From Pteria penguin (Eukaryota > Mollusca > Bivalvia > Pterioida > Pteriidae): a stretch of 64,000 nt of DNA. The DNA is taken from NCBI GenBank assembly GCA_035048485.1, contig CM068589.1:3226501-3290500 (forward strand), read 5' to 3'. The notes beneath the pieces were generated by a model. The model did no database searches. It was given only the letters and a program-made list of their open reading frames with translations, and was not told the origin of the DNA. Within the stretch, counting starts at the first letter, position 1. Each line of letters opens with the position of its first letter. This document shows, piece by piece, positions 3,272-59,270 of the stretch. The position numbers and the translations under genes are program-made.

Positions 3272-3335
3272 GTTTGATTATGACAGATAAAGAAGACGCA
3301 AATGAATAGGGATAATGCAATACTGAGACAGGTAA
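3272..3335 (-). CDS. TMC copy 1, exon TMb: second half of transmembrane helix
   Basis: This is a 64-base exon on the minus strand. It is preceded by a TTTATTTGCAG acceptor and followed by a GTAAGTGC donor. Joined in phase 1 to exon TMa (5946-5908) it reads V then TCLSIALSLFICVFFICHNQ, a strongly hydrophobic membrane helix ending in a polar stop-transfer stretch. The copy 4 equivalent (58489-58555) has the same entry phase and exit phase 2 but a different sequence, with the same hydrophobic character. The family is a putative type I membrane protein. Translation, splice signals and phase are seen directly. Expression is not known. Confidence 0.7.
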
Positions 3336-3599
3336 CTGCAAATAAAATGACATAAATGTTAGATACGTAATTCAATGGTGTAGTGACCAGATGCTTTTTT
3401 CTTTTATTCTAAGTGTTTACAGTATTGTTATTCAGCAAAATCTGTCACACCCTCTCATCTATTTGATTAAATCAAACTTCTCACCAACTTTTCAGTATTT
3501 TATTTAAATATTTAACTTAATTTAATTTCCTATTATTTAAGGTGGATATAAACATGTTGTTAAATTGAACCACTTATATTTTCTAAAAGTAAAGATCTA

Positions 3600-3624
3600 A
3601 CCAACCCCAACCCCAACCCCCCGC
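3600..3624 (+). repeat. Short CCAACCCC tandem run
   Basis: A short run of CCAACCCC-type units ending in a C tract. It is not the canonical animal telomere repeat and is probably a simple sequence. Confidence 0.5.
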
Positions 3625-3680
3625 AAAAAGAATAATAATAGTAGTAATAAATGTAGAACATATAGACCTTTTAATTTTGT

Positions 3681-3724
3681 GCACCATATGCGCATTTCGA
3701 TAAGTTATGTCTCTTCAGTGATGC
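3681..3724 (-). ncRNA. Hammerhead ribozyme-like fold (type I), slightly decayed
   Basis: On the minus strand the order is GCATCA, CTGAAGA, stem II, GAAA, AT-GCGC-AT, A, TGGTGC. GCATCA pairs with TGGTGC as stem I. Stem II is GACA/TATC with one mismatch, where the better copies have GACA/TGTC. Flanking sequence matches the retrozyme-like repeat at 11.9 and 43.1-43.7 kb. The core is seen; cleavage activity is inference and is weaker here because of the stem II mismatch. Confidence 0.6.
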
Positions 3725-4124
3725 TCGTAGCCGAATGATTGGAATACAGGAGAAACAAAACATACCAATAAAACACTTCCGAGACACGTGGACCTTGAGA
3801 CACAGTATATAAACAGGGATATACAAAAGTTAAGTGATTAATCTGCATTACGAAATCTATCCTGGACATACAGTTCGAACTTCGATATTTCGAAGTACGA
3901 GGGACCGTCAAAATCAATTCGAGTTTTAGTTGGTTCGAGTTTCCAGATACAACCAGATAAAGGCAAACTCATGCTTTTCTATTAATGTTTTGACTAATAA
4001 GGGAATTATATGATTTTACAAGTATTTATGTCATTTTAATTACATATATCTAGATAAATTTAATACTTTATTTCCTACATTACTGCTTAAAGTCTTAATG
4101 AATGATCTTAAAGAGATTAAATCT

Positions 4125-4505
4125 AGACCTCTTTATTAGCCAGGACTCTACTAATCAAGCACCTTAGCTTGTTTTCAGACGAAGATGCTTTATATTTATT
4201 ATATAAGAATAGTTTATGTTTTATAACCTTTTAACTTGAGTACCCTAGTGTTTTTTTCTCTCTATATGAAGGGTTATCTATAGATTTTAAATGTGTCTTT
4301 ATTGTGCTGCTTTTAGTAATGAGAGAGAATGTAGGTCCGTAAAACAGGGTAACCACACCAGTTAAGTGGCATTTGTAGTTGCAGTTGATTGCCCTAAAGC
4401 GGTACAAGGGATGCATTATAATCGCATATTTTTGTTGTATGTTTTTGTCTGCTTATTCTGCATGTGTATGACGGCCGTTCTCGCGTAACTGACTCTAATT
4501 ATATA
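4125..4505 (+). repeat. Diverged Penelope family-1 3' end fragment
   Basis: This region resembles the 3' non-coding end of the Penelope-like element at 32080-32510. The same landmarks occur in order: CTTTCAGAC-like block, CCGTAAA followed by GGTTAACCACACCA-like sequence, then a CCTAAG.CGGTA block. No coding portion remains. It is another solo 3' end and probably an old insertion. Confidence 0.6.
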
Positions 4506-4790
4506 TTTTGCACATTTGAAAAGATTTGATCTAATTGGAGTTTTTAACGATCACGAATAAGAACAGGGCTGTAAGGAATTCAGGTCCATTCATAAGATTA
4601 AGGATTTGCTGAAATCAACATCCTGCCAAAGATCTGTGTTGGTGTATTTCGTGGAAGAAGCTGATGATTTGTAAGAAATGAGGAGCAATTTTATCGACAC
4701 ATGAAATATAAATAATAAATACATTTAACGTATTCATTCATCAAGACATTGGAATTGAATTATCACAGTGATGTTGAAATTGACAATATA

Positions 4791-5847
4791 CAGATGGGTG
4801 CAGTCCTAACATAACACACACGTTAACGCGAAAAGCGGTCACGAGGACTGCCTTAGCACACGTGTTAGGAGTGCTCGACAGGACGCGCGTGCGCTCCTCG
4901 CGTTAACGTGGGGGGAGAGAATTCGCGTTAACGCGATTTATTCCCGCGTGCGCTCGGTCCAGTCGCACGTTCACATGTCTATACATGTATTTGTAATTCT
5001 CTATGCAGTACGGATGGAGGAAATAAAACGGATTTAATTAAATTAATGTCGCCTTAAAAACGTGTATTAAATATTATGTTAAAAGGACACCCTGCATTAG
5101 TGATTTCATATGTAATATAACAAAGAAAATTATCGCGCAGACATGCAATAAGGTATTTATGAAAAAAACTTCGTCAGTTTATACTAGCATGATTACTTTC
5201 CAATTTCATTTATTTATTTATTTATTTTTAATTTGTTTATGTATGTATCTATTTCTTATTTGTTGATTCATTTACTAGTACAACAAATTTATTTATGTAT
5301 TAACATGTGTCTCTTATTTACGTATTTATTATTATTTTTCTTTTAATAAAGCTATTTTCTATAATTTATGAATATTATAATCACCATCATTTATTAATTT
5401 TTATTTCATTATTATAATTATTCTTATTATTTTCCTAAAGTAAGAAATTTAATTAAAGTCAACGTTCGGAAATTGCGTTCAATATTTTCAAAAATATCCC
5501 TAAACTCGGAAGGGTTTTATTTAATTCTAAATATTTTACTTACACATTAATATGTTTCTATATTTAAATACACAATGTATCTATTCTCCTTCAAATCTTT
5601 CTAAATGAACATGTTAATACAAGTTTAAAGTTGTAAGCAAGCGAACGTGGCTGTCAAGCACGTTCACGCGGCAGTCGAGCGCGTTAACGCGACAGTCAAG
5701 CGCGTTCACGCGGTCTCTAAATTGAGTTCACGTGGAAGTCTGCGTTAACGCAAACGCGTGTGCTCAGCAGTCCTGAGCGCACGAGGAAAGCAAACTTCAC
5801 GTTAACGCGACGTGAACATAATGTTATGTTAGGACTGCACATCACTG
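4791..5847 (+). mobile_element. A1: TA-flanked non-autonomous element, family A
   Basis: A 1,057-base element with imperfect terminal inverted repeats. The left end begins CAGATGGGTGCAGTCCTAAC and the inverted right end CAGTGATGTGCAGTCCTAAC. It is flanked by TA on both sides (4789-4790, 5848-5849). Both ends are GC-rich and packed with palindromic GTTAACGCG motifs. At 5650-5713 three units of about 21 bases, of the form AGTCAAGCGCGTTAACGCG, are tandem. The middle is AT-rich. There is no transposase ORF. It lies just beyond exon TMa of TMC copy 1. TA target duplication suggests mobilisation by a Tc1/mariner-type (IS630-like) enzyme, which is inference. Copies: 18697-19785, 42412-42853 and a fragment at 29.8 kb. 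Confidence 0.85.
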
Positions 5848-5907
5848 TATGAACAGAATTGATCAATTTTAACCACTGATAGAGAGATATAAATGTATAT
5901 TTCATAC

Positions 5908-6197: not shown

Positions 6198-6241
6198 CGT
6201 ACGACGTCATGTCCATATTGGCGTCCAGACTTTCATGAGTT
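6198..6241 (-). CDS. TMC copy 1, exon W: acidic stalk
   Basis: A 44-base minus-strand exon, acceptor ATTCTAG and donor GTAATATT, phase 2 in and phase 1 out. It encodes THESLDANMDMTSY. The copy 4 exon (55340-55383) has identical length, acceptor core and donor, and encodes TPEYLDEDMDTTSF. The third frame is the only one that satisfies both neighbouring intron phases, and it is open in both copies. Confidence 0.68.
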
Positions 6242-6605: not shown

Positions 6606-6746
6606 ATTGGAATAGTCATCGGAAGCTCCTGTCTGAGAAAACAAGCTGGATCTACAAAGATTATTGCAATATTCTTTAGAAGCGAAATACTTATCGTTAT
6701 ATGCATTCGTGTCCCATTTTTTGTATTAGCTTCCGAGATATGCCAA
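6606..6746 (-). CDS. TMC copy 1, exon Z (5' boundary uncertain)
   Basis: The exon-like block ends at a GTACGT donor in phase 2, which matches exon W. The frame read is IAIIFVDPACFLRQELPMTI, and copy 4 has VCFLRQKLPMAI in the same place. Compared with copy 4, several changes in this frame are synonymous (Ile, Ser, Gln codons), which favours it over the alternative frame. A CCCCCTCAG acceptor lies at 6747-6755, but the distance from it to the conserved core differs between copies by a non-multiple of three. The true 5' boundary, or a small missing exon between Y and Z, is therefore unresolved. A partial copy lies at about 36.14 kb. Confidence 0.5.
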
Positions 6747-7440: not shown

Positions 7441-7493
7441 AGCAGACGAATACACTAAAAAGCTCTTCCAGTTTGTAAGGTCGCGAGTTCATG

Positions 7494-8611: not shown

Positions 8612-8749
8612 ATTTGTACAGTTCATTTGATAAGTATGACGTCTTCGGAATGTCTTGGTCTCTGCATATACTACCATTCCACCGTATATTATATTTGCAA
8701 TTCCACAATTCAAAGTCAGATGTTTCGGTAATATCAAAAATAGGGCAAT
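8612..8749 (-). CDS. TMC copy 1, exon Y: cysteine-rich ectodomain
   Basis: A 138-base exon, phase 1 to phase 1, with acceptor CTTTCATTTCAG and donor GTAAGTTA. It reads CPIFDITETSDFELWNC, then a YNIRWNGSIC block, then PKTSYLSNELYK. Three cysteines and the YLSNELYK end are conserved in copies 2, 3 and 4, all of which stay open with in-frame indels only. The pattern recalls an uncharacterised Cys-rich domain in bivalve membrane proteins (memory only). The protein is probably a cell-surface receptor-like molecule. Confidence 0.8.
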
Positions 8750-10480: not shown

Positions 10481-10609
10481 AATTTGCTTTTATTGCACGC
10501 AGTATGAAACAAAACTCCTCCACTATTCCATGATATGTTAATCCGCAATGATACGTTAACGGGGCTGTGCAATTATGTAGAGAACTTCTCTTCATCCATG
10601 ACGATTCAT
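10481..10609 (-). CDS. TMC copy 1, exon X: first recognised ectodomain exon
   Basis: A minus-strand exon ending at a GTAAGAG donor in phase 1. It reads ESSWMKRSSLHNC, TAPLTYHC and GIVEEFC in order, then KAN. The nearest acceptor is GTGTCCAACAG at 10610. An alternative acceptor further upstream would add APVFSCPTD, which supplies a Cys-Pro I would expect before the Trp, so the 5' boundary is open. Copy 4 (48182-48310) has the same length and nearly the same protein. Joining to exon Y puts Tyr before CPIF. The expected upstream signal-peptide exon was not identified. Confidence 0.72.
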
Positions 10610-11929
10610 CTGTTGGACACGAGAAAACAGGAGCATCCTTTATGAAGATATAAATGAAATAAATTTTACAGACATATGCATGGCGATGTAGTTCGAAACT
10701 CAACATTTTCTTCTCATGATAGAATGCTTTCTGCTTTCTATAACTAATACTAACACGGAAATGGTGCTGCAATACAAGTGTTTTTGGTTCAGCGTTTCCA
10801 ATTTTGATTTATTTTTTCCTTAATTGTGCAATTAAGAGACAATGACGCGGACCTTAAATACGTCCGCATGTACCAGAACGTATTGAATCACAATAGGAAT
10901 AGTTACTACAACGTCCTGCTGCATACAGACACGTTTTAATCGGATATCATGATAACTGTCATGTCTGACGCCTATTAATGTGTCATATAAAAATATATTT
11001 GGCTTTTCTGTATAAATATTCTGTAAAAAGAATGGGGAATTACACCATTGTATATACACTTGGGAAAAGGTTGTAATTACACAGACAATCGGATAAAAAT
11101 GTTCAATTACACAACAACGATTATATCGACTTTGAATATTCAATCACCATGCAGTCAATAAGTGAGATAAGACAAGGTAGAATACAGTTATGGAACCCTG
11201 TATAAAAACGTTGAATTTAGATTTTTTTTAATCGATAAGATTTAGTGGTGTGTATTAGTTTCTTAATTCGTTGTATAGTCTTTGCGCATTTACACACAGC
11301 CACACAGGAAAAGATGGGGTAACAGAACTCACGTTATCCTCTATTCAGAATGAACTGAATAAAATAGTATTATAACAAAGATTTCAATAAATCCGAGTTC
11401 ATTTTATTGAACTAAAACCCCCGACACGTAGTATAAACGTTATTACGAATCTAAGAGGAAAGGGAAAGACATACGACTTAGCTGTAGGGCAGAAATCATC
11501 AGCAATCTTAAAGCTTCATAGGATGTTGAATTTTTTTATCATAATTTTTTCTCATATTGATGGCTTGTATGTGGCAGGAAGTGTCCATATGATCGTCAAA
11601 GATTGTTCATCGGCAAACTCCTCTTGTCGAGTATGCTATTCAACATTAAATTCACATTAAAAGTGAGACCCGCCTCGATCTGCCGGTACCGAGCTTGTCT
11701 AACCTGTGCCTTTTCATTGCCTTGTGTTTAAGACTAGTAAAAACTAAAAATGTAGGTGTTTATGTACATCGCGGCCACCACATATATGCAAGTGAAGTAA
11801 TTTTTACATGATATAAATAATTCTTACATGGTGTAAACCAAAATACAAAATATACAGTAATAAATTACTATAAAAGAGGGTTTTTCCCTGACTATAATTG
11901 CACTCTTTGTAAAATTGATTGAATGCAGT

Positions 11930-15870: not shown

Positions 15871-15894
15871 TAACATAATGATATGCCATAATCT

Positions 15895-16640: not shown

Positions 16641-16689
16641 TTTTATGATCTGATATGACCTGCAATTACTTTTATAATCTCATATATTT

Positions 16690-17052
16690 CATACTATTGG
16701 ACCGAGACCGAGTCCGATCATTGTACAATGGTCAATTGAACACCTCACTCTATGACAAACGTGACGATTTCAATTTCGCTATCACAAACTTTCCTGTGAT
16801 AAGTAGCAACATTCCATCATCGCCCGCATACGGCGTATTCATATCTCAGTTAATATGTTATTCCAGAGCATGTTCAAATTACAATGACTTTGTTCTGAGG
16901 GCTAGGCGACTTTCAGGTAAGCTGCTCAACCAGGGTTATATATGTGCTAGACTAGCATCGTCACTGAGGAAGTTCTACGGTCGTTACGAGACTCCTATTA
17001 CTCCATATGATATCTCGTTATCCAGACTTTTAAATGATATTCTGGACTGAGA
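16690..17052 (+). pseudogene. Penelope-like family-2 RT C-terminal region, 5'-truncated
   Basis: An open frame of about 120 residues reads GQLNTSLYDKRDDFNF, PSSPAYGVFISQLI, SNYNDFVLRARRLS, LLNQGYI and YDISLSRLLNDILD then stop. This is the region after the RT catalytic domain in Penelope-like proteins of this type. The minus-strand copy at 38140-37659 extends further upstream. No RT motifs A-C remain here. No GIY-YIG endonuclease follows; the protein stops and the 3' non-coding end begins at once. Confidence 0.8.
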
Positions 17053-18694: not shown

Positions 18695-18696
18695 TA

Positions 18697-19320
18697 CAGA
18701 TGGGTGCAGTCCTAACATAACATTCACGTTAACGCGAAAAGCAGTCGCGAGGACTGCTTTAGCACACGTGCCAGGACTGCTCGACCGGACGCGCGTGCGC
18801 TCCCTGCGTTAACGCGGGAGGGAATTCGCGTTAACGCGATTTATTCCCGCGTGCGCTCGGTCCGTCGCACGTTCACATGTCTATATTTGTAATTCTCTAT
18901 GCAGTGCAGACGGAGAAAATAAAATGGATCTAATTAAATTACCGCGAATGTTGCCGTAAAAACGTGTATTAAATGTTATTTTAAAATGACACCCTGCATT
19001 AAGGATTTCATATGTAATATAGCAAAGGAAATTATCGAGTAGACATGCAATAAGGTATTTATGAAAAAAAAAAACTTCGTCATTTTATACTAGCATGATT
19101 ACTTTCTAATTTCATTTATTTATTTATTTATTTTTTATTAATTTATTTATGTATCTTTTTCTTATTTGTTGATTCATTTATAACTAATTTATGTATTTAC
19201 ATGTGTTTCTTATTTATGTATTTATTATTATTAATTTTGATAAAGCTATTTTCTTATTTATAAATATAGTACTTATCATCATTATTATTATCTTTATTGA
19301 TTTTAATTTCATAATTATTT

Positions 19321-19361
<41 letters not shown>

Positions 19362-19492
19362 TTCCTAAAGTAAGAGTTTAATTAAAGTCATTGTTCGGAA
19401 ATTCTGTTCAGTGTTTTTAAAAATATCCCTTAACTCGGAAGGGTTTTATTTATTTCTAAATATTTTATTTATATGTTTTAATATTTATATAC

Positions 19493-19526
<34 letters not shown>

Positions 19527-19785
19527 CCTTCAAATTCTTCTATATGAACATTTAATACAAGTTATAAGTTGTAAGCAAGCGAACGTGGCTGTCAAGCACG
19601 TTCACGCGGCAGTCAAGCGCGTTAACGCCGCAGTCAAGCGCGTTCACGCGGTCTCGAAATTAAGTTCACGTAGAAATCTGCGTTAACGCAAACGCGTGTG
19701 CCCAGCAGTCCTGAGCGCACGAGGAAAGCAAACTTCACGTTAACGCGACGTGAACATAATGTTATGTTAGGACTGCACCTCACTG
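18697..19785 (+). mobile_element. A2: family A element inside the LINE RNase H domain
   Basis: 1,089 bases, same architecture as A1: ends CAGATGGGTGCAGTCCTAAC and, inverted, CAGTGAGGTGCAGTCCTAAC. TA flanks (18695-18696, 19786-19787). Subterminal GTTAACGCG palindromes and three tandem AGTCAAGCGCGTT-type units lie at about 19590-19653. An (ATT)n run sits at 19315-19362. Removing the element with one TA joins NDVSLSV directly to RLLDKSS in frame on the minus strand, so insertion was clean and the boundaries are exact. Confidence 0.93.
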
Positions 19786-20024
19786 TACAGATAGAGAAAC
19801 GTCGTTATCAGTTACTGCCGCAGCTGCATTTCTGTGATCAGCCTTAGAATCATCTGTATAGTATGATATATAATCGGAGTACAAAGACGCAATCTCCGAA
19901 AACAGATGTTGATATTGGGGTATCAAGTTTCTTATAATCTGTTAACGTAAGTATGACTGTACGTCTCTTGAAGATATTTTGTATTTATCTATATCAGATA
20001 GCGTGATAAGTGGTTTAACACGTA

Positions 20025-29013: not shown

Positions 29014-29133
29014 ATATGTAGAGTTCATTTGATAAGTAAGGCTTTTTCGGAATTTCTTTGTCTCTGCATATATTATGTGTGCAGTTCCACAATTCAGAAT
29101 GAGATGTTTTGCTGATATTAAAAATAGGGCAGT
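29014..29133 (-). CDS. TMC copy 2, exon Y
   Basis: A 120-base exon with intact acceptor GCATTTCAG and donor GTAAGTTA, phases as in the other copies. It reads CPIFNISKTSHSELWNC, then THNIC and PKKPYLSNELYI. Compared with copies 1 and 4 it lacks six codons between the second and third Cys (the WNGSI region). It stays in frame although the rest of this copy is broken. It could be used as an exon only if neighbouring exons exist elsewhere. Confidence 0.65.
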
Positions 29134-34596: not shown

Positions 34597-34725
34597 ATTG
34601 CCCTATTTTCAATGTCAACGAAACATCTGACTTTGAATTGTGGAACTGCACAAACAATATGCAATCGAATCATAGTATATGCAGAGACCATAAGAAGTCA
34701 TACTTAACAAATGAACTTTACAAAT
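34597..34725 (+). CDS. TMC copy 3, exon Y
   Basis: A 129-base exon, acceptor CTTTCGTTTCAG, donor GTAAGTTA. It reads CPIFNVNETSDFELWNC, then NHSIC, and KKSYLTNELYK. It is shorter than copies 1 and 4 by three codons, in frame. Splice sites and all three cysteines are kept. Confidence 0.68.
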
Positions 34726-37339: not shown

Positions 37340-38140
37340 TAAAGATGATGGATAAATCCAAACCACAAGTCCAAAAATCATGAAACCAGAGGACATACAA
37401 AATCAGTGAAAATGAAAAACAAATAGAAAATAACAAAATATGTCTACTTGAAGAGCATATGTGAACCCCTGTGATGGAGTGAGATTAGGTGCCCGGGGAG
37501 AGTGAGCATCTCCTGCTTGCTAGCAACACCCGTCACATTTACCCAGTAGAAAGAGTCAAATTGTGTGAATTCCACATGTATTTATATATGGAGAAGTCGA
37601 AGTAGGCAACCTTCTAGTATAGAAGGTGTCAAATCTGTGTAAAATTACGGAATCGGTCTCAGTCCAGAATATCATTTAAAAGTCTGGATAACGAGATATC
37701 ATATGGAGTAATAAGAGTCTCGTAAGAACTCTCGTAGAACTTCCTCAGTGACGTTGGTAGTCTAGCATATATATAACCCTGGTTGAGCAGCTTAACTGAA
37801 AGTCGCCTAGCCCTCAGAACAAAGTCATTGTAATTTGAACATGCTCTGGAATAACGTATTAACTGAGATATGAATACGCCGTATGCGGGCGATGATGGAA
37901 TGTTGCTACTTAAGAAAGGAAAGTTTGTGATAGCGAAATTGAAATCGCTACGTTTGTCATAGAGTGAGGTGTTCAATTGACCATTAATGTCGAAAGACAA
38001 CATAATATCTAAATACGAAGTAGAATTACTACTTTCTGTGGTTTCTTTGACCTCCAGTTCACTTGGATAGATGGTGCTAAGGTAATCCGCGAATGAAGGA
38101 TTATTAATTGAAAACAGTCATATTTGATGTTCACAACACT
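37340..38140 (-). pseudogene. Penelope-like family-2: RT C-terminus plus 3' end
   Basis: The coding part (38140-37659) starts directly after the expected position of RT motif C with INNPSFADYLSTIYPSELEV. It then has TSYLDIMLSFDINGQLNT and continues through YGVFISQLIRYSRACSNY to RLLNDILD and stop, with no internal break. The 3' non-coding end (37655-37340) follows. Absence of the RT core shows 5' truncation. Confidence 0.85.
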
Positions 38141-42289: not shown

Positions 42290-42291
42290 TA

Positions 42292-42374: not shown

Positions 42375-42411
42375 CAAGACTCTTATTCTACGTATAAAAT
42401 TAATTATAATA

Positions 42412-42853
42412 CAGTGAGGTGCAGTTCTAACATAATATTATGTGAACGTGAAGTTTGCTTTCCTCGTGTGCCCAGGACTGTTGTACACACGCGTTTGCGT
42501 TAACGCAGATTTCCACGTAAACTTAATTTCGGAACCGCATTAACGCGCTTGATTGCCGCATGAACGTGCTAGACAGCCATGTTCGCTTGTTATATTAACA
42601 TGTAGAATAGAGGGATTTAAAGGAGAATCGCATTGTATATTGAAATATATCAATGTATAAATAAAATATTTAGACTTAAATTAAGAGATTTTAAAAATAC
42701 TGAACGGAGTGCAAGCGGGAATAGAATTCCCTCCCGAATTAAAGGGAGGACCGCACGCGCGTCCGGTCGAGCAGTCCTGGCACTTGTGCTATAGCAGTCC
42801 TCGTGACCGTTTTCGCGTTAACTTGAATGTTATGTTAGGACTGCGTCCATCTG
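42412..42853 (-). mobile_element. A3: family A element with internal deletion
   Basis: 442 bases with ends CAGTGAGGTGCAGTTCTAAC and, inverted, CAGATGGACGCAGTCCTAAC. TA flanks at 42410-42411 and 42854-42855. It is inverted relative to A1 and A2. About 600 internal bases are missing, with a junction near 42708. Terminal GC-rich parts are retained, although many GTTAACGCG motifs are mutated. It is the most diverged full-ended A copy. Confidence 0.88.
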
Positions 42854-42855
42854 TA

Positions 42856-43079
42856 CCTTTAAATTCAACCTAGTATGTACATGTTGCGTCACTGCCAGCA
42901 AACCTTTTTGCTGTACATGTGTATCGTTCTTAATTGTAACGGAGACACTGTCCTGAACCATAAAATTTGCTGTTTAATTTTAATTTATTTCTTTGGATAA
43001 CTAAACATATTTCACATATTTACATATATATAGTGTATATCTGAAAGAGCATTCTTATGGGTTTACATGCTTTTTGTTT
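42856..43079. other. Spacer, nothing recognised
   Basis: A short AT-rich stretch between A3 and the retrozyme-like repeat. Confidence 0.5.
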
Positions 43080-47095: not shown

Positions 47096-48181
47096 ATTAT
47101 CACAATGAATACAAGCGTAAAATATCTCAAGTTAGCGATGAAGAAGAATGATCACTGTGTAACACGTCTTAACATGCGGTGTGTATCTGCATGTTCAAAT
47201 AAGTGTGCGTTATGTACGTTTGTCAGCGGAATATTCTTATTTTTTGTTTGTTTGTGCAACATGACCAAAATTATATAGAAATACTCTCTGAATTCTTTCT
47301 TAATAACCTAACTGTTACGGAAAATCTGTATGCTGTTTATATTTGTCAATAAAAGGTAACTTGAATAAGGACTTCTGTTTCTTGCGTAAGGTATTGGGCA
47401 GAATTTGTCTGTATTTATTGAAGTTGTCTTTCTTTGCCGACAAATTATAAACAGTGAAAAGGGGGATATGTGAGAAAAAGGATGAAAACACCATGTTCCG
47501 GGGGGGGGGGGATGAAGATGGATATCAATAGGCATGGGCACTCGGATTGAGATTTCTTTGTCCCTCCCGGAACATGGTGTTAGATCCTATTAATCTTATC
47601 ACATTGACTGAATGGTGATTAAGTCGATACAACCGTTACTGTGTAATTGAACATTTTCATCCATTTCCTTGTGTATTTTTTCAATTTTTCACAGCTTTCC
47701 ATAGTGTATATTCTATGGTGTAATTCCCCATTCTTTTCACAAAAAATGTATATAGAAAAGACAGATCTTTTTGTTATATGATATCTTAACGACAAAATCG
47801 CTGCAAATAAATACATATTAATAGGCGTCAGAGATGACAATTATCGTGATATCCGATTAAAACGTGTCTGTATGCAGCAGAACGTTGTATCAACTATTCC
47901 TATTGTGATTCAATACGTCTGGTACATGCGGACGTACTTAAGCTCTGCGTCATTGTCTCTATTGCACAATTAAGGGAAAAATAAATCAAAATCGGAAACG
48001 CTGAACCAAAAACTTGTATTGCAGCACAATTTCCGTGTTAGTATTATTTATTGAAAGCAGAGAACATTTTATCATGAGAAGAAAATGTTGGGTTTCGAAT
48101 TACATCACTACGCACATGTCTGTGGAATTTATTTGATTTGTATTTTGATAAAGTATTCTCCTGTTTTCTCGTGTCCAACAG
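47096..48181. other. Spacer, then duplicated sequence upstream of exon X
   Basis: From about 47585 the sequence matches copy 1 (11.17 to 10.64 kb inverted). A G run lies at 47502-47511. GGAACATGGTGTT, its inverse and AACACCATGTTCC flank that run at 47480-47585, forming an inverted repeat. No exon is recognised. Confidence 0.5.
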
Positions 48182-48310
48182 ATGAATCGTCATGGATGAA
48201 GAGAAGTTCTCTACATAATTGCACGGCCCCGTTAACGTATCATTGCGGATTAACATATCATGGAATAGTGGAGGAGTTTTGTTTCACACAACGTGCAAGA
48301 AAAGCAAATT
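48182..48310 (+). CDS. TMC copy 4, exon X
   Basis: A 129-base exon ending at a GTAAGAG donor in phase 1. It reads ESSWMKRSSLHNC, TAPLTYHC, GIVEEFC and RARKAN. Only a few residues differ from copy 1, all in the last third. The acceptor is probably GTGTCCAACAG; a longer exon starting further upstream would add YSPVFSCPTD. Near identity over 3 cysteines in two separate copies supports it as real coding sequence. Confidence 0.75.
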
Positions 48311-48405
48311 GTAAGAGTTGTTTTCCCTATGAATTTGATTAAGAGGGGTTGAGATTGTCACGATTTATTTTATGTGATTTGATAATCATACCTATGAAAT
48401 TATAT

Positions 48406-51105
48406 ATATATATATATATTTTTTTTTTCCATACTTTATTTTCATTCAGTCACATCACAAAAACATCACAGATTAATATAAACATTGTAAGTATAAGTGT
48501 ATACAACACTACTATTTGGCATGTATCATATATTTTACATTAATAAGCTGTATTTTGATAGTGTTTTTATAGTGTAATAAAATTTAATCGAAAGAACTAG
48601 GAGATTTCATACAGGCATTCATATTAGTAGTTCAAAAAGTACATTGAAAAATCATAGTTTTTAAATAATTCTGATAATGAGTATAGAAAAAGTATCCTGA
48701 TCACTCAAGATTAAAAATGTTTGTCCACACACTCCACTCCTTTTCAAAGGAAGGAAGATTGCTATTATTTACTGCTAGCATTTTTTCACTAATGATATAG
48801 TTTTTTAATTCTATTCTGAAAGCATTTATATTCAAAACTCTTTCTTGCATTTTGCATTTAAAAATATAAAATCTTGCAATCAGTAATATAAAATTTTTTG
48901 GAAGTTCTATTGAATTTGAAGTTTTACCAAATATTGCTGTTTTCATGTTTATATCTAAAAGAACATTTGTATTATCATAAATGTATTTGGTAATATTTTC
49001 CCAGAAATCTTGAACTATTGGACAAAAATAAAAAATATGAATTATACTCTCAGGTGCAGCTTTGCAAAAATAGCAAGTTTCATTTTCAGTAATTCCTAAT
49101 TTCTTCATGTATGTATTTGTGCCTAGGATTCTATGATTAATTCTGAATTGAAACCATTGTAATTTTGTTGAAGCACAAATTTTGAAAGGGTTATTATATA
49201 TAAAATTCCAATCTATATCATTAAGGAGTATAATATCATTCCATTTTTTTCATACTACCTGGACTAGATATATTTTCAGAAACACTTAAAAGTGAGTAAT
49301 AATATTTACAACCACTCTCGTTATTATAAAAAAGTTTAATTATAGGAGGCAAGGACAGATTATTCAAGATACATTCATTATTGTCAATAATAGTTTTGTA
49401 CTTTATACAATATGCTTCAATACTATGTTTTATATTGTAGTATTCAATAAAATTAGTTCTCAAGTTGAACTTTCCCTTCAATTCATTTTGACTCAAGATT
49501 TCAAAATTATTATTCATAATATCTCTGATCGTATAAATATTTGCTCTAAACCAATTCCCAAAGAAAAATGGTTTATCTGCTATACATAAATCAGTATTAT
49601 TCCAGATACGAGTGTTTATGATTTCATCTAGAGAATTTATTTTCACTTTTTTCAACATAGTTTTCCATGCATTGAGTGTATCCACCCAAAACGTATTGTC
49701 TGTATTCTGTATTAGTATATCTAAGTAATTGTCCCCCCTGTTAACCAAATTGTGAATTGTACAGACTGTACTTTCAAAAAGATGAACGCATTCCGCATTT
49801 TTTGATAAGAGCTTTTTTATCCATGTTAGTTTTATAGCCATAATATGTTTTTGTATATCTATCATTTTTAAACCACCTTTGTTTTAATTTTGCACCATAA
49901 CATCTCTCTTGATTTTACCAGGTTTTCCATCCCAAACAAAATTATAAAACATCTTATTTATTTCCTTAAGTATGTGCATTGGGGTGTTAGGAAGAGATGA
50001 GAACAAATGATTCATTTTGGATAGAAATAATGATTTGATTAATGTGATTTTTCCTATAGGTGTAATGTTTCTGTGTCTCCATTTGCTCATTTCATTTTTA
50101 ATATATTCAATTTTGTCATCGTAATTTATCTTAACAATTGAATTAAGATCTATGGAAAATTTTATACCCAAAACATCAAAATCTTTTTGACTCCAGTCTA
50201 ACTTTAGTCGATGGTGGAATACTTCTTTACTGAACTTTTTATTACCTATCCAGATAGCTTTAGTCTTAGTGTCATTAAGTTTTAAACCAGAAAGAGAAGA
50301 AAAACCGTCCAAGATGTACATAGTGGCATTAAACGACTCAGTTGTGCCATCCAGCATTAAGCTGGTATCATCAGCGAATTGAGATATTAAGTACTCTGTA
50401 TTCTTGATATTTATCCCTTTGATATTCTGATAACTTTTAATCATTAAAGCAAGTATTTCTGCACACAGTATAAAGATGTAAGACGAAATGGGATCACCCT
50501 GTCTACAGCCACGACCAATTTTAAAGAATTTAGATAAAAAACCACATTGAGTTATTGCCGTATATATGTTGGTATTAAAAAGATTTATCCACCTTTTTAT
50601 TTGGTGTTCAAATTTAAAAAAAATCTAAGACTTCATTAATAAATGTCCATGATATAGAGTCGTATGTTTTTTCAAAATCCAATAACAAAATTAGTCCTGG
50701 CATATTCTTTATCTGAGTATAATTAATTATGTCATAAATTATCCGTGTGTTTTCTCCAATAAATCTGTCCTTAATAAATCCAGTTTGACTTGGAGAAATT
50801 ATTTCATTTAATACATTTTTAAGCCTGTCTGCTATACATGAGGATCCTATTTTATATATAACGTTTAACAAAGTTATAGGTCGCCAGTTTTTTAAATAAA
50901 GTTTTGATTTATTTCCTTTAGGAATGCATATTATTATTCCTTCTCTCTGAGTTTGTGAAAGCTGATTTGAATGAAACCCATGGTTTAATGATCTCAATAT
51001 AAAGTCATCGAAGTCTTTAACAAAGAACTTAAAAAACTCTACAGTATATCCATCTGATCCCGGACTCTTATTATTCTTCATCTTTTTTAGAGCGTAGTGT
51101 ATTTC
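48406..51105 (-). pseudogene. L1/Tx1-like LINE, 5'-truncated, in the X-Y intron of TMC copy 4
   Basis: It starts inside ORF2 (YEIHYALKKMKNNKSPGSDG), then YLKNWRPITLLNVIYK, TGFIKDRFIGENTRII, motif A LLLDFEKTYDSISW and motif C SQFADDTSLMLDG. Then come the C-terminal domain and CYFCKAAPESIIHIFYFCP, a CCHC-type zinc knuckle of the zf-RVT kind. The 3' end has AATAAA and a poly-A tract (poly-T on the plus strand, about 48411-48428). The endonuclease is missing, which is typical 5' truncation. Four or more frame breaks are present. The empty site is visible in copy 1 near 10.39 kb, so insertion followed the duplication. Confidence 0.9.
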
Positions 51106-52275
51106 ATATTTTGTAGTATGTTGACTATATACATAAGAGCTTACTTATAAAGCGAAATATTTACTTACACATGGATATAGTCGACTCTTTATATCTGCAC
51201 GCCTTAGTTTAATGACATATGAGATAATACTCTCTGAACTAAAAATATACTTCGGATTGTTGGGTACATGATGTCCGGGTAATTTCGTGGTGTATACAAA
51301 GCGACCCAAAAGACAAGAAAAAAATGTAGATTTTATGTCAAATCGTTTTAGATACAGATAATAATTCGAATTATGACGTCGCATTTGTGACTAAAACACA
51401 AAGTTAATTTGCGTTTATTTTAACTTCTTCTCCCTGCATATTATACTGGAATATTCTAGATTATAGTCTTTCATGTTGGAGGACTCGTGACATTCAGGTC
51501 AGAACAATTAAGTTCAATGATAAAATTATTAAAAATACCATTTAGATTTTGCTATGCCGTATTTAAGAACATATACTGGCGTTGTTGTCTGTTAATTATT
51601 ATGACTTTTTTTATTCACCGTTAGATTTTGTTTTATGCATATAATTCACATAATTTGTAAAGTGACACTTTCTTCTTTGAAGCTTGAATACATCTACGCG
51701 TGAATACAAATATAACATATTTATCATATGCTGGCAAGGGCGTTCGGTAAACCTTTTCAACGTAACTCTGATTATCTCTGCTTAATGAATGTCTCTAAGA
51801 CTCTAAGCCTTATAACAGAAAGTATCAATTCCCTCTCATGAAACAAATGTACAAGACAAAACATCAAATGATAATCAATGTTAAAGTCAACTTGATATTT
51901 CACACATATAGTGGTAAAACTCTATTTCTATGTTCCTCTGATGTTTATTTAGTTTGGGGTAGGGCTGCTATTATGGGATGTATCTCCCTCATGCATAGTT
52001 CTGTGACTGTTTCTTTCACACTTACTTTTAGGTTAGTTTCCTCTTTAATTTGTTATAACTTGGATTACCATAGTTTCGGCCCCTGAGCATCTCTGAGATG
52101 TAGTTGTCGACATACGCACCATTGTGTATATCTCGTCTTCTATTTATGAATTATGTCTCTTAGTATTAAAGGTTTACATAAACTTCTGATGAACAATATG
52201 AAATGAATGATATCTTTCATTACATGAATTCTTTTCTTGTCAAACATATGGGTAGATCGAATCTTTCATTTCAGA

Positions 52276-52413
52276 TTGCCCTATTTTTAATATCAACGAA
52301 GCATCTTACGTTGCATCGTGGAACTGCACATATAATATGCAGTGGAATGGTAGTATATGCAAAGACCAAGAAATTCCGAAAAAATCATACTTATCAAATG
52401 AACTGTACAAGTG
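52276..52413 (+). CDS. TMC copy 4, exon Y
   Basis: A 138-base exon, acceptor CTTTCATTTCAG, donor GTAAGTTA, phase 1 to 1. It reads CPIFNINEASYVASWNC, NMQWNGSIC and PKKSYLSNELYK. Same length and cysteine spacing as copy 1. Exon Y is the best-supported exon because four copies can be compared. Confidence 0.8.
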
Positions 52414-52480
52414 TAAGTTAACTTCATTTGTTAAAATGGAATACCATCAATATCTTGTGTCAGATAATCACTATAAAAGA

Positions 52481-53711
52481 AAAAAGAGGAGTTACTGGCT
52501 CAGTTATGTGGCAGAAGTCACCATAGAGCTATACAATATATGGATATAAATAATATACTAGAACATATATCACATTACAAAAATATTTGATTGTAGTGCA
52601 ATTACGATACCGACTTAGGACGGTCATTTAATTTGACAAAAGCCAAACAAATGGTGTGGTTAACCGATTTACGGGCCCACCTTCCCACTCACCGTAACAG
52701 CAGAACAATCAAAGGACGTACATTTAAAAATCTATAAATAATCCTCCATGTAAAGAACAAGGGTCAACAGGTATCGCATATTGAGAGGTCATAAAAATAT
52801 AAACACGTAAGGTATTGTAAAATACATAATGGTATAAAAATATATGCGACATCAACATGATAAACCGTGCTCTGCCAGTCTGAAAGCGAGCTAAGACCCT
52901 AGATCTGTAGGAGTCCCGACTAACAGTCAGAGGGGACGAGGTTCAGGACCATGTCTCCTCTGAAAGAGGTTTGGACAAGGCCCGTCATATAGTCCCCACC
53001 GCCCTGTTAGTCAGCGTGCAACGTTCAAGTAAAAGTCTGCATAAGGCTGTAGAGGGGCCAAATACAAGACCTATAGTCTTTTTGATGATCTCAATATCAT
53101 ATTGTCTATTTATAAGACGTTTGATTATTTTATTACATGATAAAATAACGTTATCGGAGCCTTTTACTTTCCTTAGTTTATATACGAGATCACCGTAAAA
53201 AAAGGGATGGGAAATTCCATTGGATACATACTGTTGAAAAGAAATATTTCCAAATTTAGATAGAAGTTCTGAATAAGATCTGAAGAATTTGCCGAATGTT
53301 TTTCTTAACTTGTGATATCTGTAACCCTGAGTTAAAAGTTTAGTAGTAATTTGTAAATTTCGTTTATGAAAGTCCAAAACATCGGTGCAGCCTCTGACAA
53401 ATCGAACTAATTGAGATATATAGATACCATATGATGGGAGTCGAGGAACATCGCCATCCAAGTAAGGGAAATTTACAATAGGAAATCCAAAATCCTCACG
53501 TTTATCATAAATATTCGTATATATTAGGTGGTTGATAATTTTGATGTTTAAATCTAAGAAAGGTGTAGATTTATCTCAAGTATTAGCTTTATTCAATGTG
53601 AGTTCTGGTGGATAAATTTCTGATATAAATTGTTCGAATTCAGGGTTGTCGATAACCAAAATATCATCCAGATATCTACAAGTATTATTGAATTTGTCAA
53701 TGAGGTCAAAA
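52481..53711 (-). pseudogene. Penelope-like family 1, 5'-truncated, in TMC copy 4 Y-Z intron
   Basis: Coding begins near motif C (CRYLDDILVID, about 53660-53690, catalytic Asp pair intact). It continues with the C-terminal region: GDVPRLPSYGIYISQL, TTKLLTQGYRYHKLRKTFGK and TIGLVFGPSTALCRLLLERC. A TGA at 53578-53576 corresponds exactly to that in the 30.4-kb element. The 3' non-coding end (52481-52980) matches 32020-32510. The empty site in copies 1 and 3 reads ATAATCA followed by the host GTTC sequence, so insertion is recent relative to duplication. Confidence 0.88.
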
Positions 53712-53860
53712 CTACTGTTCGTATATAAGTTTTCAAAAGCATTTATGATGCGATATTGGTTGATTGATAACGGCTGATAACAAAGACACTTTAAACTGGC
53801 GACCTTAGAGACAGGAAGAACTTTTAGTGTACTCGTCTGGTTTCTTTACAAACATCAAAC

Positions 53861-53938
53861 AAGTTTACTTTAAAGGACAAAATAATCCAGCGTCAATAAA
53901 TAATTAAAGAACATTTATGACACTCACAAACATGCCAT
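53861..53938 (+). pseudogene. Crypton tail in TMC copy 4
   Basis: It reads VYFKGQNNPASINN, stop, RTF, after which the frame shifts. The Tyr codon is TAA, as in copy 3. Same place and orientation as in the other copies. Confidence 0.62.
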
Positions 53939-54780
53939 ATCTTCTATCCGGTCTAAGAATACATCTCTTCAAACAAGAAATAACACAAATCCACAAATTC
54001 CCTTTCCGCCCCACAAAGAAATGTCAATGTCGCTTCTTTACCGAAATAATCAAGTACTGCAGCAAATTCATTCGGTTAGTAGAAGTAGGTCTGAAAACAC
54101 TATGGTGGGTCTTTTTGCTGGAAATAACATTCACAATTGCCAAATAGAGGCGAAAATGCGTAACAATTCCTCAACTGACGGAGATGGATGATGACCGACT
54201 TGGACTCGGAAGAATCACGTGTGACACTTGCTGTAATGTGAACGTTGTAGTGGTTATACAAAACAAAAACTTTCCGAATGATTTATATAAAATTATGAAA
54301 CATGTCCTTTGCTTTATAATATCTCGGTATTCTTTTTGCCTTTTCTTAAATACATTAGATGAAATACAATAATTATTAGAAATTTTCGCCACTGTGTGAA
54401 TTTTTCATCACTAGTAACTCTATGGCGCAGTAATTTTAATTATTGAAAAAAGAAAATAAAACGGTAATATATTTTTCTCTCTTGGCTGTACTCGTCCTTT
54501 ATCTTTCTAGTTCATACGCTAGGTTTGTATTTTTAAAAATACGATCTCTTAAGGAAAATTTCTTTAAACACTCAATATTAAAATTTTTAAGATTTTCTAT
54601 GAGTGTTTGAAATAAAGTAAAAAGAAAATTTAAGGTGAGAAATGTAATGCAACAGTCAACAGTCAATCCCTTTGGGATGTTGAAATCTAATCCTCGGTGT
54701 TCAATATAAAAATGCATGTAAAATATATATGACATAATCCATAATGTATACTAATGACGGATTCTTATATTCCCACTCAG

Positions 54781-54896
54781 CTGGACCTGACATCAATACA
54801 TATATTGATAAGGATCTCACTTCTAATGAGTATTGCAATAATTTTTGTAGATCCAGTTTGTTTTCTCAGACAAAAGCTTCCGATGGCTATTACAAT
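54781..54896 (+). CDS. TMC copy 4, exon Z (5' boundary uncertain)
   Basis: It follows a TTCCCACTCAG acceptor and ends at a GTAAGTTT donor. The frame consistent with exon W (exit phase 2) reads IAIIFVDPVCFLRQKLPMAI. Entry phase from this acceptor would be 0, while exon Y exits in phase 1, so either a small exon is missing between Y and Z or the real acceptor differs. The alternative frame (EYCNNFC) is open too but breaks phase with W and contains a stop in copy 1. Confidence 0.5.
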
Positions 54897-55339
54897 GTAA
54901 GTTTGTTACTTTACAATGTTGTAGCGTGGCAGAAAATATGAAATGGTAAATGAAATAATGAAAATTCTTAACAAAACTACATAGTGTATTTGATTTTTGA
55001 CCAAAAGAAACAAAAATAAGGTTAAACTTGAAAAAGATTTTTTTTTTGGTCACACTGGCAAATCATGACCATAATACAAAAAGCCATATAGAAATGCATG
55101 CATGTAGTCACAAGATAATTTAAAGAAAGAAAGTAAAGTCTATGAAATATTCAACTGAATCCATCCAAGTAAAGAGTAAAAGTATTCAATGTTGCAAGAG
55201 ATGTATAACAGCAAACAGCAAACAATTTGCCGAAAAAAAAAAAGATGAAGACAATAGTGTTTTCTTATGAACGCCTATCATCCCTCTGACATATTATCAA
55301 TTCAACTACACATTATCATTTGGTTTGAAATATTTCTAG

Positions 55340-55383
55340 AACTCCTGAATATTTGGACGAAGACATGGACACGACATCCTTCG
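55340..55383 (+). CDS. TMC copy 4, exon W: acidic stalk
   Basis: 44 bases, acceptor ATTTCTAG, donor GTAATATT, phase 2 in and 1 out; encodes TPEYLDEDMDTTSF. Acidic and Thr-rich, consistent with an extracellular stalk before the membrane helix. Same length and splice signals as copy 1. Confidence 0.7.
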
Positions 55384-55630
55384 GTAATATTTACTATACA
55401 TAATCTTTTGTACAGATTTAATGTGTTCAGAAGTATTGATTCTTATTGTTTCTCTAATCATTAGTTTTAAATGTGATAGCAATTATATTGAAAATAATGT
55501 AACATGTTGATGTAAGATATTTTAACTTCATGTATATATCCATGACCATTTCCGATTTCTGCGGATAAAACTCATGTTTATTTCTGGTTCATTACTCCAG
55601 GGTTTTGCATATTTTATTCACTGAACATAA

Positions 55631-55907
55631 AGCCGGTGTGGCCCAATGGATAAAGTGCTCGGCTCGTGATTGAGAGGTCCCGGGTTCGACTCCCTCCCTG
55701 GGCGCACCGGTGTTCTCTCTTCCGGATGAGACAGTAAAAACCGAGGTGCCATGTCACGGTATGTGTGGCACGTAAAAGATCTCTCACTGCTTCGGGTAGG
55801 ACCATTGCAAAAGTCTACATTTATATGCCATGCATCAGTGAGATGCTGTCACCATAAACGTGAAATATACGTGGAGTGACGTAAAACAATATTCAATCGA
55901 TCAATTT
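55631..55907 (+). mobile_element. tRNA-derived SINE with target duplication
   Basis: The head resembles a tRNA: A box TGGCCCAATGG (55639-55649) and B box GGTTCGACTCC (55683-55693). The body and a CAATATTCAATCGATCAA tail follow. The flanks carry the 11-base duplication ACTGAACATAA (55620-55630 and 55908-55918). It lies in the W-TMa intron of copy 4. The copy 1 intron is about 250 bases and lacks it, which accounts for the size difference. Confidence 0.92.
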
Positions 55908-55947
55908 ACTGAACATAACTCTGAAATTGGATGTCATTCCTTTACAG

Positions 55948-55986
55948 AAGTAACAGAAGAAATCATTATCATCATATCTGCTGTTG
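55948..55986 (+). CDS. TMC copy 4, exon TMa
   Basis: 39 bases, acceptor CCTTTACAG, donor GTATGA, phase 1 to 1. With the preceding G it reads EVTEEIIIIISAV, the start of the membrane helix. Same length and donor as copy 1. Confidence 0.72.
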
Positions 55987-56087
55987 GTATGAAATATTTA
56001 TATAAATCTCTCTTTCAGTGACTAAAATTATTTTATTTGGTTGATATGTTCTTTCATTTTCATTATAACCGCGGTACTTTTGTTTCA

Positions 56088-56228
56088 AAGAAAAAAGAGG
56101 AGTTACCGGCTCAGTTATGTGACAGAAGTCACCATGGAGCTATACAATACATGAATATAAATAATATAATAGAACATTTAACACATTACAAAAATATTTG
56201 ATTGTAGTGCAATTACGATACCGATTGG
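56088..56228 (-). repeat. Penelope family-1 3' end, solo fragment
   Basis: It matches the extreme 3' end at 52481-52620 (GAGGAGTTACCGGCTCAG, GAAGTCACCATGGAGC). Only about 140 bases are present, in the TMa-TMb intron of copy 4. Confidence 0.8.
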
Positions 56229-58488
56229 AAAGTATTTCTTTCAATTATCGTCTCAAGTATTGATAAAATAATAGACAAAATTCGTCCACATGTCCTGTAA
56301 GTACATAACATCAACTTCTTGTAAAATATACACTTACAAAGAATTTTTGCACTGAATTGATACCAGCAATACCTCTCATACTCAATATTATTAATTGCTC
56401 CGATTTCGTTGCGGGCTTGTTATGACTCAGTTATGTGAACAAGGTTGTCAAAGACGTAGAGATAATGATAAAGAAAACAGAAGACATCTGACAAAGCTGT
56501 TTGACACCAATCTGCAAGGACCTGCATACAAAAAATGATAATAGTAGAATATACACAGAACATTACAAAAATATAAATAATTTAAACAGAATAAACATTC
56601 AAATTTATACGTTATAATATTCGATTGCATTGGTTAAGGACAGTCAATTGAAGTGACATTTATCAATAAAGTGATGTGGTACACGGCTTCCCACTCATTA
56701 CAAAAATCTATAAATAATCCTTCATATAGAGAAAAAGGATCCACAGGCTACTCATCATGAAAATAAACAAAATATTGTTATAAAATGAGTATGAACATAA
56801 AACATGCCAGTCTCAAAGCGAAATAGTATCCCTAATATGTATTTGTCTGACATACAGAGTAGTTGAGGTTTAGGATATAATCTCATAAGACCGTTTACAT
56901 AAGACCCGTCATAGAAAGTGAACGCTAAATGAAGAGTCGACACAAGGTTGTAGAGATGGTCTTATGGTTATATTTTATGTGTTAATGCGTTTCAGTCATT
57001 TTTCAACCCGATCAAATTAAATCTTCGGAATCTTGTTCCTTTCTGATTTTTTAATATACATTATAATGTCACTGTAGAAATGAGGATAAGATATTGCTGT
57101 AGTCATTTAAATCTATATATTTTTGCAAAGTGTTACGAAGATTATGCTATCGTCACGTATATCTTAATTGCAAGTATATTGTAACACTTTTCGAATTTAT
57201 CAAATTCATTTGAGTATTTGGATGAAAAAAGTATACAAGGTACGAGGCACTGTTAACATACGGAAACCCTTACAAAGTTCAAAGAACTAACATGAATCCA
57301 CGAGGACTATATCATTACAACAGTAAATAGTGCTGCATATAATTATAGATTTAAATGTATGGAAATTATTATGTTCCATTACTGTAATTCTACAAATGCT
57401 GCAGCGAGTTTTTCTTTTTCAGAAGGTGACTGACCACAATAACTCTGTTCTCACCACGTTTAGTACTGACATCAAGTAAATTTGATTAAGATTTCACTAA
57501 TTTGTGTTGTATTCCCAAGAGACTAAACATCTCTAGTAACAATGCCATACTGCTGGTTACTCTAAAATCTACATGGAACGGACTTAGAAACTTTTGATTG
57601 AAAATTAAATCTTACCGTCATGAGCACTAAGAAATATTAGACTGTAATAGTGGTATCGAGATCAAATCAATATCGAAGAAATACCAAACCGTTAATGGAT
57701 CCTGAAGTTTGTGGATTCTAAAGTTAGTGGATCCTAAAGATAAAACGCTTCCGATTAAAATCTTTAATTCTGTTAGCATTGCCTTTCCAAATAAACCGGG
57801 AAACCACATACAACGGCAATTCTATTACATAGTATTTTGTATTATGACATTTCTGTTATCTGATCACGTCACGTAATGAAGATAATGTCTTCATCACATG
57901 TTCTCTCTATATGAGTTGCAGTATATTTTGCCTATGGCGTTGCCACATCAACAACTTAAAATTTCAATGACTTTGTTCTGGAGATGATTCGACTGTCAAG
58001 TTTACTGCTCGACCAGCAATATGTGGATGGTAGAAAACAAATCGATAGTACACACGAAACTCTCGTCATACAATATTACATATTCATGTCAGAAATAAAT
58101 TCTCATCTGAATTTTTTTTAACCACTGAGATAGTTATATCCATCAGGTTATGATCAGATCATATGTATGGTTATGTTATTCATTGCGCTAAGACTTATAA
58201 TTTATAGATATATAACATTTATTCACCATTTCTGTCGACTAAGGATCCAATGAATTGTATCAGTCAAATGGCTACATTTAGTCTACTATCTTTATAAAAA
58301 CCGACTCAAACAAATGTTATATTTATATACGATTTTATAAATGTTTATACATTTCAGAACAATATCTAAGACAAAACACTGTGAAAACTAACAAAGGTGA
58401 TGGAAAAGAATTGTACTAAACTACGATAAAACTTACTTGTACAATTGATCCGAGATAAGTAATGCCTATCATATTATTTTCATTGTAG
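56229..58488. other. Remainder of TMa-TMb intron, copy 4
   Basis: Mostly AT-rich. The segment 56620-56950 resembles the Penelope family-1 3' region but is strongly diverged. No exon is seen. Confidence 0.5.
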
Positions 58489-58555
58489 TTGCCTTTCTGA
58501 TTATTGTATTATCAGCAAACATCCTCGTCTTTGCGTGCATTCGTCGCAACAAGAA
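58489..58555 (+). CDS. TMC copy 4, exon TMb: transmembrane helix
   Basis: 67 bases, acceptor TTTTCATTGTAG, donor GTAAGTGT, phase 1 in and 2 out. It reads V then AFLIIVLSANILVFACIRRN, followed by KK. Together with TMa this gives an uninterrupted hydrophobic helix of about 27 residues followed by RRNKK, a typical stop-transfer signal, which places the cysteine-rich part outside the cell. Confidence 0.78.
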
Positions 58556-59038
58556 GTAAGTGTACAAAATACTATATTGTCTCATGTTGAATGCCTGATT
58601 GCCTAACATTTCCATACACAGGGCAAACAAATGAATATGTGAATATAAGAATTTGATTAAATTCCCTCGATCGACGTAGTACACCGGTTTAAAGTTTACC
58701 TATTTATTCGCTGCAACCTCGGGACATTACAAGAGCACCTAACAATAAAATTTTTCATAACATCCAAACCGAAACTGAAAAGAGATCAAAATAGCTTTAT
58801 TTTAGTTTTATGTAAGATTCACGTAAACAAATTGATTAGTTAAAGCGTCGTTGAGGTAGTGAATGGCTTCAATTAAAGTTCAGGAAATTTCTGAAGTAGG
58901 ATGTAAACGATGGCATTTGTTATCAATAAAGTATTGATCAGGAAATTCCGAAACATATGCAGTACACATCTATATATGATAAAATTCATTATTTGATTGA
59001 GGATATAGATATATAGTTAGTGCATTCTTATTTTCCAG

Positions 59039-59270
59039 AGGTAAATATAACAACGGTCAAGATCTCGAACAAATTTCAAATATAGAAGCGGTGGATGCAG
59101 AGCAGTACAATGATGTGACCGTATACGATGAAATTTTAGATGGCCATTCTATAGACAACTGCTCAACCGCAGCTATCAAGGATAAAAATAAATATAAAAT
59201 GCCAAAGGGCGGAATTGAGAGTAATGGAGCACGTAATGTAAACATGGACGTCACTGACAATGATATTTAG
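59039..59270 (+). CDS. TMC copy 4, terminal exon: cytoplasmic tail
   Basis: The acceptor is TTATTTTCCAG and phase 2 fits exon TMb. The open frame of 76 residues starts GKYNNGQDLEQISNIEAV and contains EQYNDVTVYDEILDG, followed by a Lys-rich part, then NGARNVNMDVTDNDI and TAG. YNDV and YDEI are YxxV/I motifs of the sort bound by SH2 domains when phosphorylated. After the TAG the frame stays open and repeats the pattern (NRPRDIDIDVNDLV), so the stop may have shortened an older tail. Signalling is inference. Confidence 0.72.

Follow-up and report, generated by a model that had tools for sequence, protein, structure and literature searches.

A clustered family of predicted single-pass membrane proteins with an eight-cysteine ectodomain in the bivalve Pteria penguin

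A stretch of 64,000 nucleotides from Pteria penguin (hereafter the window; G000:C10:3226501-3290500 of an 838 Mb assembly with 49 contigs) harbours several copies of a short open exon, which raises the question of what kind of protein these copies encode and what it does. An initial annotation of the window proposed an expanded receptor-like family; the family proved to be real, with many genome matches to two of its exons, X and Y, and the interpretation was supported in part. The window lies inside a family cluster on contig C10. Its copies 1 and 4 belong to a large, clustered family, whose products may well be type I receptors with a single membrane pass that serve recognition and signal via phosphotyrosine. 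As judged from sequence, the parts of this reading differ in strength: a surface receptor is very probable, phosphotyrosine signalling is evenly poised, and immune recognition is plausible, if a little short of that.

Gene structure and predicted proteins

Comparing the window with itself revealed four segments that are homologous to one another and have a nested, inverted arrangement, with the introns duplicated as well:

about 5.7-13.4 kb, minus strand, segment of copy 1
28.0-29.9 kb, minus strand, segment of copy 2
33.1-36.2 kb, plus strand, segment of copy 3
44.0-56.1 kb, plus strand, segment of copy 4

Exon Y is present in 4/4 segments, open, in phase 1-1 and with a length that is a multiple of three, as the initial annotation had described. 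The four gene copies counted there are reduced to two genes and two fragments consisting of exon Y only:

10706 down to 3272, minus strand, copy 1, complete-looking type I membrane-protein gene with the tail exon just outside the window
29014..29133, minus strand, copy 2, exon Y alone, open, 18 nt shorter; fragment
34597..34725, plus strand, copy 3, exon Y alone, open, 9 nt shorter; fragment stopping right before W
48085-59270, plus strand, copy 4, complete-looking type I membrane-protein gene

Beyond exon Y, further exons were looked for in copies 2 and 3 and not found. Their Y exons were also considered as cassettes belonging to copies 1 and 4, and this was dropped because they are positioned upstream of the X exon of their own strand. 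Copies 1 and 4 each contain exons X, Y, W, S (stalk) and TM (transmembrane); the tail exon of copy 4 is inside the window, and that of copy 1 lies about 1.2 kb past its left edge. The exons of copy 4, all on the plus strand, are:

48085..48310, exon X, start codon, signal peptide and ectodomain cysteines C1-C4; exit phase 1
52275..52412, exon Y, ectodomain C5-C7; phase 1-1
54851..54896, exon W, YPVC (C8) and the beginning of the stalk; phase 1-2
55340..55383, exon S, acidic stalk TPEYLDEDMDTTSF; phase 2-1
58489..58555, exon TM, membrane helix and RRNK; phase 1-2
59039..59270, tail exon, TVYDEILDG motif and stop codon; entry phase 2

Those of copy 1, on the minus strand, are:

10481..10706, exon X, second-best match of the oyster profile described below
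8612..8749, exon Y
6606..6651, exon W, donor gtacgt
6198..6241, exon S, stalk
3272..3335, exon TM
G000:C10:3225310-3224977, left of the window, tail exon with NVYEEIND motif

The predicted exon order X-Y-W-S-TM-tail has compatible phases throughout (start-1, 1-1, 1-2, 2-1, 1-2, 2-stop). Joined by script, the exons give 250 residues in copy 4 and 283 in copy 1, both ended by a stop codon. The predicted layout comprises a signal peptide, an ectodomain with eight cysteines, a short acidic stalk, one membrane helix, RRNKK and a tail with a tyrosine motif; the ectodomain, acidic stalk, membrane helix, RRNKK and tail had already been read from the joined exons of copy 4 in the initial annotation. 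In this copy the ectodomain cysteines are residues 30, 46, 54, 66, 77, 93, 104 and 125, and sequons are found at 45, 92 and 100. The hydrophobic helix (approximately 148-170) is encoded within one exon, contrary to the split helix first proposed.

Exon X, initially taken as internal, is predicted to be the first coding exon and to carry the signal peptide, because the acceptor-like CAG before ATGAATCG is absent in the paralogues G1, L006 and L007, and the hydrophobic signal-peptide frame and CPTD are kept. That X and W occur in two copies with equal phases held for copies 1 and 4, but the boundary of W had to be moved. A start at 54781 (acceptor 54780) was ruled out by a phase clash, phase 0 against phase 2 of the stalk; TTTRTAG/ATCCAG at the start of W is common to 5/6 genes of the array and places it at 54851 in copy 4, in phase 1-2, with which all exon phases fit. 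Among the six array genes, W was located in five and the stalk exon in two. When the earliest joined model of copy 4, which had the incorrect W, was searched against proteins, it gave no match at E <= 10 (141 candidates). No additional exon was found between X and Y, and X joined straight to Y aligns across the whole domain; the Z exon formerly placed between Y and W was rejected. Conserved stretches at about 53.9-54.2 kb and 35.3-35.6 kb were ruled out as exons by stops and frameshifts between copies.

Repertoire across the genome

Searching the genome with exon X of the window as DNA query gave 22 matches, of which 21 are on contig C10 (3.14-3.94 Mb) and one on contig C5. The protein query of exon Y gave at least 111 matches, none of them with a stop, 31 on C10 (3.14-4.11 Mb) and 80 on C5 (22.6-59.1 Mb). 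The search with exon X from C5 produced 367 candidates. Of these, 150 were scored, located on C5, C10, C6 and C11; 149 are stop-free and one has a TAG. These counts are lower bounds, and the matches were found by similarity, which badly decayed copies would escape. Of random frames of 47 codons taken from the array, 8.1% are open. Thus counted, the predicted family comprises well over a hundred loci, arranged in clusters.

Four more genes (G1, G2, G5 and G6) with X, Y, TM and tail in the same order were found in 260 kb of the array, and the compact gene L032 at C10:4.0427 Mb shows this order as well. A gene on C5 has X and Y in the same phases as the window genes, a candidate TM exon in phase 1-2 and the tail SAVYDEINDI; neither a W exon nor a stalk exon was located for it. 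A locus on C11 has a Y-like ORF (open reading frame) with DGCPKEGYFSNELYRC, which is nearer to the oyster motif described below.

Conservation and selection

Copies 1 and 4 differ by 568 substitutions (13.8%) and 66 indels in 4129 aligned bp (TM and tail excluded), and 14 of these indels are multiples of three. Exons X, Y, W and S (454 bp) have the same length in both copies and no frame-shifting indel, where 6.4 would be expected. Codon models gave ratios of nonsynonymous to synonymous rates (omega) of 0.40 for the ectodomain part of X (11 genes; twice the log-likelihood difference, 2dlnL, 21.1 against omega 1), 0.34 for exon Y (6 genes; 2dlnL 19.5) and 0.39 for the tail, taken over its first 38 aligned codons (6 genes; 2dlnL 12.2). 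Adding the fragments of copies 2 and 3 to exon Y gave 0.40 (2dlnL 16.3). The signal peptide (omega 0.84) and TM (0.59) could not be distinguished from 1 in these fits. The transition/transversion parameter kappa was gridded from 1.2 to 3.2, and 2dlnL may be slightly too high for the signal peptide, the X ectodomain and TM, because the optimum at omega 1 was at the upper edge of kappa. The dN/dS comparison suggested initially gives values clearly below one for the ectodomain part of X, for Y and for the leading part of the tail, which are under purifying selection.

A core of 38 residues of X is identical between copies 1 and 4. In the ectodomain part of X (10482-10619 against 48172-48309) 5/138 nt differ, compared to approximately 14% in the surrounding alignable DNA. 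Strong constraint or gene conversion could each account for this low divergence.

Relation to an unnamed oyster family

A consensus sequence used as query led to three real proteins, one of them named as Crassostrea angulata. The alignment search then yielded 78 proteins, and those that carry a name (14/78) are all from oysters, in line with the bivalve homologues anticipated at the outset. Members are listed as 'uncharacterized protein', among others LOC128163341 (Crassostrea angulata), LOC117692007 (C. gigas), LOC111136263 (C. virginica) and LOC134274189 (Saccostrea cucullata). The initial annotation had named an omega of one together with a lack of homologues in other bivalves as evidence against its proposal; this is not what was found, since omega is below one for the ectodomain part of X, for Y and for the leading part of the tail, and oyster relatives exist.

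An oyster-only profile was built from 51/78 proteins, no window sequence included (P0005, P0009, P0014, P0020, P0023, P0033, P0053, P0057 and P0060-P0078 were left out). Among 1838 ORFs of the window it ranked exon X of copy 4 first (E 8.4e-7) and that of copy 1 second (1.4e-5), and the next match had 0.19. Among 4564 ORFs of the array, the six X exons of the array were on top (9e-7 to 3.7e-4; next 0.054). Exon Y alone was not significant against this profile (E 0.19 or worse). The joined ectodomains scored 22-38 bits, whereas 3000 plain shuffles reached 13.4 at most.

The oyster family shares with the window genes a signal peptide, the start CP-x5-[WF], NC, YxC, EFC, a later C, ELYK/EIYK-YPxC and a helix after the ectodomain; the alignments place the cysteine framework C1-C8 (CP...W, YxC, EFC, YKYPxC) in the window genes. 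As read from the proteins, the oyster ORFs P0057, P0064, P0066 and P0067, which seemingly run into introns, break at both matching places in phase 1. Identity is approximately 25-30%, and the tails are unlike. The window branch has neither the CP ahead of ELYK nor the last two cysteines of oyster members (C9 and C10 in CFLAExxC, missing from both copy 1 and copy 4), and additional sequence is inserted between its C6 and ELYK. Because the last cysteine pair is absent, the window genes are placed by their sequence as a divergent branch of the unnamed oyster family and not as close members.

A hydrophobic helix follows the ectodomain in 42/46 oyster-type members (those of P0001-P0059 with at least 170 residues). 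In the oyster-type proteins P0005 and P0014, the same ectodomain and helix precede a NADAR domain on the cytoplasmic side (E 3.2e-46 and 9.5e-47), the layout of a NADAR protein anchored in the membrane. Ankyrin repeats are present in the tails of P0033 and P0053 and weakly in that of P0027, and the tail of P0013 has a GTPase-like match that falls below the cut-off. The NADAR domain was also searched in the P. penguin genome, where 150 of 245 candidates were scored on many contigs. This suggests a dispersed, perhaps mobile domain, and the NADAR fusions in oysters may therefore be captures.

Domain content and predicted fold of the ectodomain

The initial annotation recognised no named family, and similarly no Pfam domain, whether Ig, lectin, EGF, TNFR or another known receptor type, was found in the ectodomain: the first model of copy 4 gave just two weak, chance-like rows, and among the 51 oyster members no family was common to more than three, the best of the shared ones having E 0.03. 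AlphaFold2 models of the oyster proteins P0042 and P0010 reached a predicted local distance difference test score of mostly 89-97 in the domain. The elements follow in the same order in both: one strand, the helix that comes after CP, a set of four strands and a short helix at the EIYKYP stretch. Foldseek against the PDB with these two models gave a best E of 1.5 or worse, which still allows a relation to a solved fold, and a search of the same type against BFVD with P0042 gave nothing better than 0.12. The ectodomain is thus confidently predicted to fold, without a convincing PDB match for the two oyster models, which is insufficient alone to claim a new fold.

Tail motif and proposed mechanism

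The best-kept feature of the predicted tails is a tyrosine motif, YEEI, YDEI, YYEI or YEKI. Y-x-[EK]-I was found in 8/8 tails examined on contigs C10 and C5:

NVYEEI, copy 1 and L032
NIYEEI, G5
NAYEEI, G6
TVYDEI, copy 4
AVYDEI, the C5 gene
NVYYEI, G1
NVYEKI, G2

The position of the tails behind the membrane exon supports their identification independently. YEEI follows the helix in the oyster protein P0028 as well. Phosphorylated YEEI (pYEEI) is the classic ligand of Src-family SH2 domains. In G2 and G6 a second tyrosine is found ten residues upstream (YxxV-x6-YxxI), similar to the spacing of paired tyrosine motifs in immunoreceptor tyrosine-based activation motifs, and this likeness in 2/8 tails may be due to chance.

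In the proposed mechanism, the disulphide-bonded ectodomain would bind an extracellular ligand, and its divergence among paralogues (40-75% identity) would widen the repertoire. Ligand binding would cluster the receptors, a kinase would phosphorylate the tail tyrosine, and the resulting pYEEI-like site would recruit an SH2 protein, preferably of the Src family. The most likely use would be the recognition of microbes or non-self.

Several points weigh against this reading. The count of 8/8 motifs is partly circular, because the tails were located via similarity to the tail of copy 4 and that of the C5 gene via the motif itself. YEEI is also compatible with the endocytic signal YxxPhi. The mean omega is well below one, and these mean values give no sign of positive selection, which immune receptors often show. 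When the cysteines were kept in place, 3000 shuffles reached up to 20.1 bits, close below G5 with 22.4. Only for copies 1 and 4 was a stalk exon located.

Tandemly expanded receptors for gametes, allorecognition, chemosensation or developmental cell contact would explain the same genes. Such roles are filled by expanded clustered families in other animals, and no sequence feature indicates a microbial ligand, but the ankyrin, NADAR and weak GTPase-like tails of the oyster relatives loosely recall defence proteins, and we consider a non-immune role unlikely. An endocytic or scavenger receptor would be the same surface protein, with the tail tyrosine used as a YxxPhi signal for cargo uptake and not for SH2 docking. 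YxxPhi is a known endocytic sorting signal that Y-x-x-I matches, most tails have a single motif, and they are short and have no catalytic domain. Nevertheless, the acidic residues at +1 and +2 in 6/8 tails suit pYEEI better than the usual AP-2 signals, and the YEEI of oyster P0028 points the same way, and this role is rather unlikely too. Decayed or mobile-element-driven segments without a protein product, whose open frames are left from recent duplication, would suit the plentiful mobile-element remains, the duplication of whole segments with introns and the fragmentary copies 2 and 3, but they are very improbable given 111/111 stop-free Y and 149/150 stop-free scored X matches where few random frames are open, the omega below one and the 454 exonic bp free of frame-shifting indels.

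Other features of the window

Besides the receptor-like genes, the window contains mobile-element remains and repeats:

4789-5849, 18695-19787 and 42409-42861, several copies of a dispersed repeat that contains many GTTAACGCG-type words
16649-17047, 30654-32006, 37659-38117 and 52985-53575, retroelement ORF fragments, mutually related
27376-28091, minus strand, relic of a DNA transposon of the Tc1/mariner type, with matches to Pfam HTH_Tnp_Tc3_2 and DDE_3 that lie in two frames
48701-51144, minus strand, reverse-transcriptase element in the first intron of copy 4, directly after exon X; Pfam RVT_1 at 49884-50624

The retroelement fragments are presumably Penelope-like; two of them (16649-17047 and 30654-31415) were scanned against Pfam and matched no family.

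Comparison with known systems and significance

The architecture of the family is familiar, and its ectodomain is not. According to PMC7494358 and PMC10875847, the PTC1/PTC2 clusters of snails are likewise clustered single-pass membrane genes of a mollusc, with an ectodomain without known domain. There, polymorphism and a link to parasite resistance are known, and the PTC2 paper reports no homology outside gastropods. The likeness drawn here to the window family is one of architecture, and the window genes were analysed in one genome. Lineage-specific tandem expansion in a bivalve is also described for the Toll-like receptor and similar immune receptor families of oysters (PMC4346834), which have recognised domains, whereas no Pfam domain was found in the ectodomain of the window family.

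A description of the family was not found in the literature searched (listings, abstract openings and some passages) and may still be in print; six of its locus names had no mention in the literature library searched. As far as the searches reach, the family appears to be already in databases under 'uncharacterized' names.

Bivalves are not known to possess antibodies and depend on extensive repertoires encoded in the germline. A wider proposal, tentative and on the whole doubtful, is that the ectodomain is an undescribed recognition domain with a fold absent from solved structures, that it underlies a non-self repertoire which ranks among the larger ones of a bivalve (150 loci scored among 367 candidates) and signals through a pYEEI-type site to the Src family, and that oyster branches are wired to NADAR or ankyrin outputs. 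With no Pfam model and no convincing PDB relative found, the family represents a sizeable repertoire missed by domain libraries. It offers a defined domain, a fold that is predicted with high confidence and could be solved, and a specific signalling motif, and many 'uncharacterized' oyster genes could be annotated together.

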